The notes beneath the pieces are model-generated. The model worked only from the letters and a program-made list of their open reading frames with translations. It made no database searches and was not told the origin of the DNA. Below are positions 14,222-15,745 of a DNA stretch of 32,649 nucleotides, piece after piece. Where the stretch lies: assembly GCA_903926385.1 (NCBI GenBank), contig CAIYIS010000060.1, positions 1 to 32,649 on the forward strand, written 5' to 3'. The stretch is from an uncultured Bacteroidota bacterium. GTDB lineage: Bacteria; Bacteroidota; Bacteroidia; 2-12-FULL-35-15. Numbering within the stretch: position 1 is the first letter of the stretch; every line of letters starts with the position of its first letter. The translations under genes were made by a program, and so were the position numbers.

Positions 14222-14353
14222 TTTGTTTTCTAATTTATTTCGATTTTGAGCTGCCGATATCGTTTGAAAGATTTATGAAGTAAAAAAAAGGGGACGGCAA
14301 ATGTGCCAAAGCATATTTGAGCGAGATTGTGCGGTGGCAGCTCGTCTCTTTAG
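14222..14353. other. Non-coding flank of the repeat element
   Basis: No gene seen. It contains an 8-bp inverted pair GAGCTGCC (14248-14255) / GGCAGCTC (14336-14343). A small GGCA-AATG-TGCC hairpin (14296-14307) lies beside an A/T run that reads as CCCCTTTTTTTT on the minus strand, a possible weak terminator. Confidence 0.4.
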
Positions 14354-14432
14354 CCCCCGTAGGTGCGAAGCTGAAGCTTTGAAAAGTGCGCAAGAGCTTC
14401 GTGACATAATAATTTGGTAAGTTGTACTTACC
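14354..14432 (+). repeat. Left inverted-repeat arm
   Basis: Begins CCCCCGTAGGTGCGAAGC and ends GGTAAGTTGTACTTACC. Pairs with 15040-15117. Confidence 0.85.
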
Positions 14433-14545
14433 TGTAATAAAATTCATATTCTTCTGTTTATTAAATTTCACCTTTGCAGGTGTTTCCTCACCTGCAAACC
14501 GAACCCGCTTAATTTCTTTTACAAATATACACTATTATAATACAC

Positions 14546-14578
14546 AAAAAAAAATCCCACTCATTGCTGAGCGGGATT
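14546..14578 (-). terminator. Terminator of the decayed 21-bp-repeat ORF
   Basis: AATCCC and CTC (14553-14562) pair with GAG and GGGATT (14569-14578) with one internal mismatch. Nine A residues at 14546-14554 read as a T run on the minus strand. It lies about 40 nt after the stop at 14620. Confidence 0.75.
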
Positions 14579-14619
14579 GTTGTTTAATACAATTCCAAAA
14601 ATTTCCTGCAGCTTCATCA

Positions 14620-14904
14620 TCATCGCTTGGGTCTGTGAGGTAAATCGAATTCCTTTTTTTCTGCTTCCAAGAGTTTATTTGCTGCTTCGAAGCAACTCCA
14701 TAAAAATTCAAAATTGCTTTTTACTGCTTCGAAGAGCTTATTTGCTGCATCGAAGCAGCTCCAAACAAGTTCGAAGCAGTTATTTGCTTCTTCCAAGAGC
14801 TTATTTGCTACATCGAAGCAGTTCCAAGCGTGTTCGAAGCAGTTATTTGCTTCATCGAAGCAGCTAAAATCAAGATGGAAGTAATTTGTACAAATTCGAA
14901 GCAG
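14620..14904 (-). pseudogene. Decayed heptad-repeat ORF (no start codon, frameshifted 5' part)
   Basis: The minus strand is open for about 94 codons and encodes successive 7-aa units such as NCFDVAN, KLLEEAN, NCFELVW, SCFDAAN, KLFEAVK, SNFEFLW, SCFEAAN and KLLEAEK, ending at TGA 14620. There is no ATG in this frame. The repeats continue upstream (14905-14955: GVWSCFDVAKNCFEE) but in another frame and with a TAG. The DNA repeat spacing drops from 21 to 20 bp between 14877 and 14897, which explains the frame change. The hydrophobic pattern (C/L-F at 2-3, A/V at 6) fits an amphipathic heptad helix. A terminator lies just downstream, so an expressed protein probably once existed. I do not recognise a family. 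Confidence 0.5.
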
Positions 14905-14950
14905 TTAATCTACTCTTCGAAGCAGTTCTTAGCAACATCGAAGCAGCTCC
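14661..14950. repeat. Degenerate 21-bp tandem array, about 14 units (TTCGAAGCAG core)
   Basis: The CGAAG core or its variants starts at 14667, 14688, 14709, 14730, 14751, 14772, 14793, 14814, 14835, 14856 and 14877 (exactly 21 bp each), then 14897 (20 bp), 14918 and 14939. A stronger 63-bp (3 x 21) super-period is visible between about 14724 and 14849. Confidence 0.9.
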
Positions 14951-15001
14951 AAACTCCTTTGTTTTCGCTTTATTCTGCTTAACATTTGAATGCGGGTAAT
15001 T

Positions 15002-15032
15002 AAAAAGCCCTCAGCTGCACTTCCCAGCTGAG
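15002..15032 (-). terminator. Second minus-strand terminator inside the element
   Basis: CTCAGCTG (15010-15017) pairs perfectly with CAGCTGAG (15025-15032) around 7 nt. On the minus strand it is followed by GGGCTTTTTAATTA. No gene is visible immediately upstream of it, so what it terminates is unclear. Confidence 0.6.
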
Positions 15033-15039
15033 TTATTTA

Positions 15040-15117
15040 GGTAAGTACAACTTACCAAATTATTATGTCACGAAGCCACAGCGCACTTACAACGCTTCAG
15101 CTTCGCGCCTACGGGGG
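15040..15117 (-). repeat. Right inverted-repeat arm
   Basis: Reverse complement of 14354-14432 with one gap and a few mismatches; starts with the palindrome shared by both arms. Confidence 0.85.
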
Positions 15118-15250
15118 TATTTCTTTGATTATTTTTAGTGTTATGTAGGGTGACGAGAGGCATCTAATGATTGACATCAGCGAAACACATTAGCGGTTGC
15201 TTCACTTCGTTTCGGAGGTATTTGGATTAATGTTCAGGGGTCAGGAACTA
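15118..15250. other. Gene-free spacer between the IR element and the second array
   Basis: No ORF with family resemblance, hairpin terminator or promoter box is convincing here. Confidence 0.4.
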
Positions 15251-15376
15251 TCGTTCACAAATTGTGGACAGTCGTTCACAAATTGTGGACAGTCGTTTAC
15301 AAGTTGTGGACAGTCGTTTACAAGTTGTGGACAGTCGTTCACAAATTGTGGACAGTCGTTCACAAGTTGTGGACAG
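15251..15376. repeat. Six 21-bp tandem units, each a dyad (iteron-like)
   Basis: Units start at 15251, 15272, 15293, 15314, 15335 and 15356. Each contains the near-perfect palindrome GTTYACAARTTGTGGAC, and units differ at only two positions. Spacing equals about two helical turns. The 21-bp period keeps several frames open (a 94-codon plus-strand ORF at 15197-15481 reads FTNCGQS repeats), but no frame has features of a real gene. Confidence 0.92.
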
Positions 15377-15745
15377 TCGTCCGAGCACCTCAGATTCTTG
15401 ACCGGAAAGCTGAAAAGGCAATCGGAATCTCTCGGTCATCTAATTAAATATTCATTTCATATAAACAAAATTATTATTTAAATACCAGTGTGTTATAGAC
15501 AATCTGTACCATCTCCAAATTAAGGCACTATCCTATTTTTCATTCTAAAATTCACTCTCCTTAATTCGTAAATTCCTACTGTCACCCTGAGCTAGTCGAA
15601 GGGCGTATTTCGTAAAGTCAATCCCAAATCTGTGAATCTGTGGCTAACCTCCCCCTCCTCTCAATTTGAAATCTGAAATCCCAAACCCCTTCCCTTCCCC
15701 AAAAAATATTTTTTAACAACCTTTTTAAGCATTGTTATTAATTAA
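15377..15745. other. Gene-free intergenic stretch upstream of glmM with dispersed-repeat remnants
   Basis: Includes GTCACCCTGAGCTAGTCGAA (15581-15600, continuing GGGC), a sequence widespread between genes in many bacteria, and AATCTGTGAATCTGTGGC (15626-15643), another commonly seen intergenic phrase. Pyrimidine-rich runs follow. No gene is seen. Confidence 0.45.

Follow-up and report, generated by a model that had tools for sequence, protein, structure and literature searches.

A probable mosaic of REP/RAYT repeats around a 21-bp-period array between divergent SDR and glmM genes of a Bacteroidota bacterium

The window analyzed here is a 32,649-nucleotide stretch of DNA that forms contig C60 of an uncultured Bacteroidota bacterium, whose genome (G000) has 4.27 Mb in 85 contigs. 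Within it, we studied a 764-bp segment (14354-15117) in the region between an SDR gene (minus strand) and glmM (plus strand), upstream of both genes. The segment is bounded by two inverted arms, arm 1 at 14354-14433 (minus strand) and arm 2 at 15039-15117 (plus strand). We found two blocks of inverted match between them, 14384-14433 against 15039-15088 (50 nt, 92%) and 14354-14384 against 15087-15117 (31 nt, 90%), and an alignment across the arm gave 91% identity. Each arm has its own 17-bp palindrome, located at 14416-14432 in arm 1 and at 15040-15056 in arm 2. Within the window, this palindrome and the 24-nt outer motif CCCCCGTAGGYGCGAAGCTGAAGC are both confined to the two arms, while dinucleotide shuffles gave expectations of 0.08 and 0.00, respectively. 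Single-strand folding of both arms also beats shuffles (z -2.8 and -4.3). Hence, the sequence-only reading of this DNA was right that the inverted arms are real and that each can fold and carries its own palindrome. An Rfam scan of the window returned zero matches. Just outside arm 1, the stretch 14280-14353 contains GGCAAATGTGCC...GCATATTTGAGC, a possible hairpin scoring modestly above shuffles (z -1.66).

To locate related sequences, we searched the genome with 786 bp around the segment and found 58 matches, which cover the arms and a second module (approximately 14471-14585). The array that lies between the arms gave no match outside the window in this search. When arm 1 alone was used as the query, 13 places in the genome were recovered at 81-100% identity; five are at transposase genes or their remnants, the other eight at different sites. 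At C81:157-878, two inverted arms (157-230 and 800-878) flank the gene of a transposase, RAYT-1 (P0001, C81:256-786), an open frame of 177 aa. This protein scored 94.5 bits against the NCBIfam model NF047646 for REP-associated tyrosine transposases (cut-off 80; the genome search gave 94 bits at C81). It also passed the cut-off of Pfam Y1_Tnp, and residues 59-61 form an HIH motif. Its match to the solved TnpArep chain 4er8 was weak. Partial or broken copies of the RAYT-1 gene, each with an arm, are present on C1, C9, and C42. Arm 1 is 95% identical to the right end of the C81 element; arm 2 is 96% identical to the same end and 97% identical to the copies on C41 and C6. A GTAG tag stands at the foot of an imperfect palindrome, GTAGG(C/T)GCGAAGC...GCTTCGTGAC, in 13 aligned arms with few base changes. 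Each arm of the window thus consists of a GTAG-tagged REP hairpin and its 17-bp palindrome.

The layout of arm, gene, and inverted arm is repeated in a species of the same genus (G013, contig C337, arms at 987-1061 and 1661-1732). Inverted flanking repeats scored above all shuffles at 10 of the 14 RAYT loci examined (C81 and G013:C337 included), and many flanking repeats at RAYT loci are built alike, with a hairpin carrying a GTAG-like tag and, after it, a palindrome of the GTAAG..CTTAC type. Arm-like dispersed copies also occur in G001, G011, G013, G014, G019, G021, and G030 (same class). Across the relatives, the presence of a close RAYT-1 gene and that of arms do not correspond one to one. 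Because several of the RAYT and arm copies found are located at the ends of contigs, the assembly probably lacks some of them. Judged by their sequence, the arms are dispersed copies of the end repeat of a RAYT-1 element and fit the known REP/RAYT (REPtron/TIRtron) kind. They had been linked to mobile DNA from the letters of the segment, and as dispersed repeats associated with a transposase they uphold that link. The segment had also been placed in no recognized class, which no longer holds for the arms with a cognate RAYT flanked by inverted arms at C81. An apparently unclassified element thus becomes an instance of a REP/RAYT system.

Inside arm 1, an inner flank (14434-14472, minus strand) is shared with C28, C36, and C41, and by eye its final portion looks like the RAYT-1 gene at its 3' end. 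Next to it lies the second module, which consists of a terminator, a TAnnTTTG motif, and a hairpin. It occurs at 14471-14585 of the window and at more than 20 other loci of the genome, usually just upstream of a same-strand gene. In the window, all three parts are on the minus strand: an intrinsic-terminator-like hairpin (14553-14578), a putative Bacteroidota-type promoter motif TAnnTTTG pointing to the SDR gene (14522-14550), and the hairpin TTTGCAGGTG-N6-CACCTGCAAA (14473-14498). An exact search of the genome recovered the pattern of the last hairpin 22 times and the reversed control pattern not once. We named it REP-B because its copies adjoin a second RAYT gene, RAYT-2 (C1:1-411, minus strand; C34:35449 onward). 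RAYT-2 at C1 scored 69.3 bits against NF047646, as a partial match at a contig end; the RAYT-2 matches are below the curated cut-off, and both copies are cut by contig ends.

The TAnnTTTG motif was found by script 29-45 nt before the REP-B hairpin in 13 of the 22 copies, and by eye in a 14th, although the copies are homologous and the spacing of motif and hairpin is therefore not independent evidence. At most REP-B copies, a same-strand open frame begins within approximately 260 bp downstream. Taken as sequence features, these observations suggest that the dispersed module may act as a mobile promoter. Its repeats may rewire expression, given the Bacteroidota-type promoter motif and the usual site just upstream of a gene. 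By eye, an open frame starting MEKTRYINSRSFAGEKTPAKASFLQ encloses the hairpin of several REP-B copies (L046:1402-1500; L053 and L054 near 140-260); this frame is possibly a small leader peptide.

REPtrons and TIRtrons have been described as GTAG-tagged REPs with RAYT genes, in which the REP is joined to another stem-loop (Di Nocera 2013, PMC3733652). The present elements resemble them in having a RAYT gene between inverted GTAG-tagged hairpins and dispersed single copies. As in the TIRs of Pseudomonas, the REP is joined to a second stem-loop, whereas the second palindrome here (GTAAGTTGTACTTAC) differs from theirs (PMC3733652). That survey reported GTAG repeats in Proteobacteria, Cyanobacteria, Chloroflexi, and the PVC superphylum, and not in Bacteroidetes; the host in our study belongs to Bacteroidota, in which GTAG-tagged RAYT ends are now documented. 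The TnpAREP subclass 2.6, or RAYT group 5, is found mostly in Bacteroidetes and has atypical flanking structures with dispersed copies (PMC6006769). Our host and the atypical flanking secondary structures copied elsewhere in its genome are similar in these respects. In a comparison by motifs, NHIH and YIHNNP of RAYT-2 fit the published NH[LIV]H and YIH[QN]NP of this subclass (PMC6006769), while SHIH and YIHDNP of RAYT-1 are each one residue off.

Two arms that face each other could be the ends of one element. The sequence-only reading had offered a non-autonomous mobile element carrying a repeat-peptide gene, of which the link to mobile DNA stands; the single unit and the peptide gene are not supported. 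A single unit would be a REPIN- or MITE-like element whose two arms are recognized by RAYT-1, which would move everything between them, including the minisatellite. The arms indeed face each other like the ends of a REPtron, a cognate RAYT is present in the genome, and C8 carries a true short element with two facing ends, as does G014:C1 a comparable pair. Facing-end pairs such as these show that small non-autonomous derivatives form here. Topologically, one unit is possible, given that a REPtron or REPIN would have its two ends placed in this way. REPINs have been described as two inverted REPs close together, for which movement by a RAYT acting in trans is proposed (Bertels and Rainey 2011, PMC3116915). 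The arms are similar as two inverted REPs near each other; they are different in standing approximately 600 bp apart around unrelated DNA and in a single copy (PMC3116915).

The distribution of the pieces argues against a single unit. The genome search found no second copy of the whole 764-bp assembly, and a comparison with plasmid and phage collections gave no match. Several copies sharing both ends and interior, as a REPIN or MITE of 764 bp would have, were not encountered; only the arms and the module at 14471-14585 recur, and the interior array is unique. The aligned arms split into left ends (C81, C42) and right ends, and both arms of the window are of the right-end type. They belong to two subfamilies: arm 2 has a one-base deletion in common with C84 and C8, while arm 1 lacks it and shares its form with the RAYT right ends and with C28, C36, C41, and C6. 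Furthermore, the inner flank of arm 1 recurs over approximately 130-150 bp at C41 (93%), C28 (85%), and C36 (87%), and genome searches found no second arm on these three contigs. The inner neighbors of the right ends differ as well, with REP-B at C28, C36, C41, and arm 1, another repeat at C6 and C84, and a terminator at arm 2. Because of the arm subfamilies, the recurrence of the arm 1 flank without arm 2, and the differing inner neighbors, independent insertion is the more economical explanation, with the caveat that the subfamily argument depends on few positions of 79 bp. We consider the 764 bp to be a mosaic of independent insertions rather than one non-autonomous element with a probability of roughly 0.78; that RAYT-1 moved the segment as one unit appears unlikely. 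In the 29 relatives examined, the SDR gene was never found beside glmM, and no orthologous empty site was found. On its inner side, the RAYT-1 right end directly adjoins CGGCAAGATGCCGGTTAAAC...ACGGGGTA, a third palindromic repeat with dispersed copies, at C6 (L049, 3236-3300) and C84 (L055).

Another explanation for the facing arms, also offered by the sequence-only reading, is a segment that inverts by recombination between the arms. It would be a phase switch, since after inversion the promoter module inside it would no longer point at the SDR gene. The inverted repeats of approximately 79 bp, with an exact inner part of 33-34 bp, and the promoter motif inside the segment are compatible with this. 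However, the flip reading gained no positive support; a Pfam scan of ten of the window's proteins revealed no recombinase, and the arms are already explained as ordinary dispersed repeats. We regard such a switch as very improbable, although rare RecA-mediated inversion between the arms may occur.

The interior of the segment is occupied by a diverged array with a 21-bp period at 14657-14954, without a copy elsewhere in the genome. Its periods are 21, 42, and 63, and the lag-21 identity between neighboring units is 0.53. No frame is open across the array, contrary to its earlier description as coding. Of the terminator-bounded repeat ORF proposed at this place, the ORF is not supported; terminator-like hairpins are present at 14578-14553 (minus strand) and, beside arm 2, at 15032-15010. 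The array could also be seen as the remains of a heptad-repeat peptide gene with its own terminators, with the arms being incidental. A period of 21 is a multiple of 3, the hairpins lie on both sides, and some other arrays do contain open frames. Against this, there is no open frame in the array itself, the open frames counted over 18 arrays of this genome (14) hardly differ from the 12.8 +/- 1.6 obtained after permuting the unit columns, and some arrays drift to periods 41 or 62. Such a gene remnant therefore has very little chance of being the correct explanation. We rejected the array as a gene on its lack of an open frame and on the lack of an excess of open frames over column permutation in the sampled arrays. 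Similar C-terminal peptides readable in the arrays of C57, C7, and C42 were set aside, since their DNA flanks are homologous. BrickBuilt, a MITE of P. gingivalis with a 23-nt minisatellite, recurs 19 times as a unit (PMC4596501). The region studied here is similar in its Bacteroidota host, its intergenic position, and its tandem array beside repeat ends and promoter sequences. Unlike BrickBuilt, its period is 21, and array and arms never recur together, the array being without a second copy.

Taken together, the best reading of the region is an old minisatellite, lying between divergent genes, around which copies and debris of two REP/RAYT systems accumulated. RAYT-1, whose gene lies elsewhere in the genome, is an HUH-type REP-associated tyrosine transposase; it presumably recognizes the GTAG-tagged hairpin on single-stranded DNA and would be able to move such ends in trans. 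Most probably, two right-end copies inserted as separate events, facing in opposite directions, on the two sides of a 21-bp minisatellite that was already there. Arm 1 would have arrived with, or beside, the second dispersed module, which comprises the terminator, the promoter motif, and the REP-B hairpin linked to RAYT-2. The promoter of this module, if active, would drive the SDR gene. What the arms are, their transposase, their dispersed copies, and the occurrence of the pieces apart from each other are shown by the sequence, while trans-mobilization, the order of events, and promoter activity are inferred. The mosaic illustrates how a single promoter region can collect a minisatellite together with repeats from two RAYT families.

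Separate from the arms, and more open, is the question raised by the many 21-bp arrays, namely how bacteria make minisatellites. In a 400-kb sample of the genome, 19 of 32 tandem arrays had a smallest period of 21 or 42. In 200-kb samples, the smallest period was 21 for 10 of 26 arrays in G014, 2 of 11 in G009, 1 of 11 in G010, and 1 of 4 in G040; the samples come as unbroken stretches from one or two contigs, which makes these densities rough. A survey of prokaryotic satellites found that few bacteria exceed 4 per Mb by its method, which is not comparable with the present scan (PMC6749651). Our search of the literature on 21-bp bacterial arrays turned up only general tandem-repeat papers, BrickBuilt, and Borg tandem repeats.

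Further tests were carried out on 18 arrays, 16 from the 400-kb sample and two in the window. Their units are mostly unrelated, with L143 and L148 having unit and flanks in common, and are slightly more self-complementary than permuted units (mean z 0.94, standard error 0.26). Two of the 18 overlap a frame of at least 120 aa. Of the other sixteen, eight lie between divergent, five between tandem, and two between convergent genes; the position of the remaining one could not be assigned. Besides the drift mentioned above, a period of 103 was seen in some arrays elsewhere. A general link between arrays and REP modules was rejected on the unbiased sample, in which only 1 of the 16 arrays outside the window is near a tested REP module.

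We tentatively suggest, at less than even odds, that a process in this lineage creates or keeps many 21-bp (or 42-bp) arrays, which are mostly intergenic, non-coding, and slightly self-complementary, most with their own unit and often between divergent genes. They would form a lineage-specific minisatellite class dictated by the helical repeat of DNA (two turns), perhaps as binding arrays or transcribed repeat RNAs, and some would lie in dispersed elements of varying unit number. One such element includes a second 21-bp array of the window, located outside the arms at 15251-15380. The element, with the array unit TCGTTCACAAATTGTGGACAG, is present at 15205-15460 of the window with approximately 6 units and is duplicated at G000:C19:2905-3262 (L218) with approximately 11 units, and its flanks are conserved.
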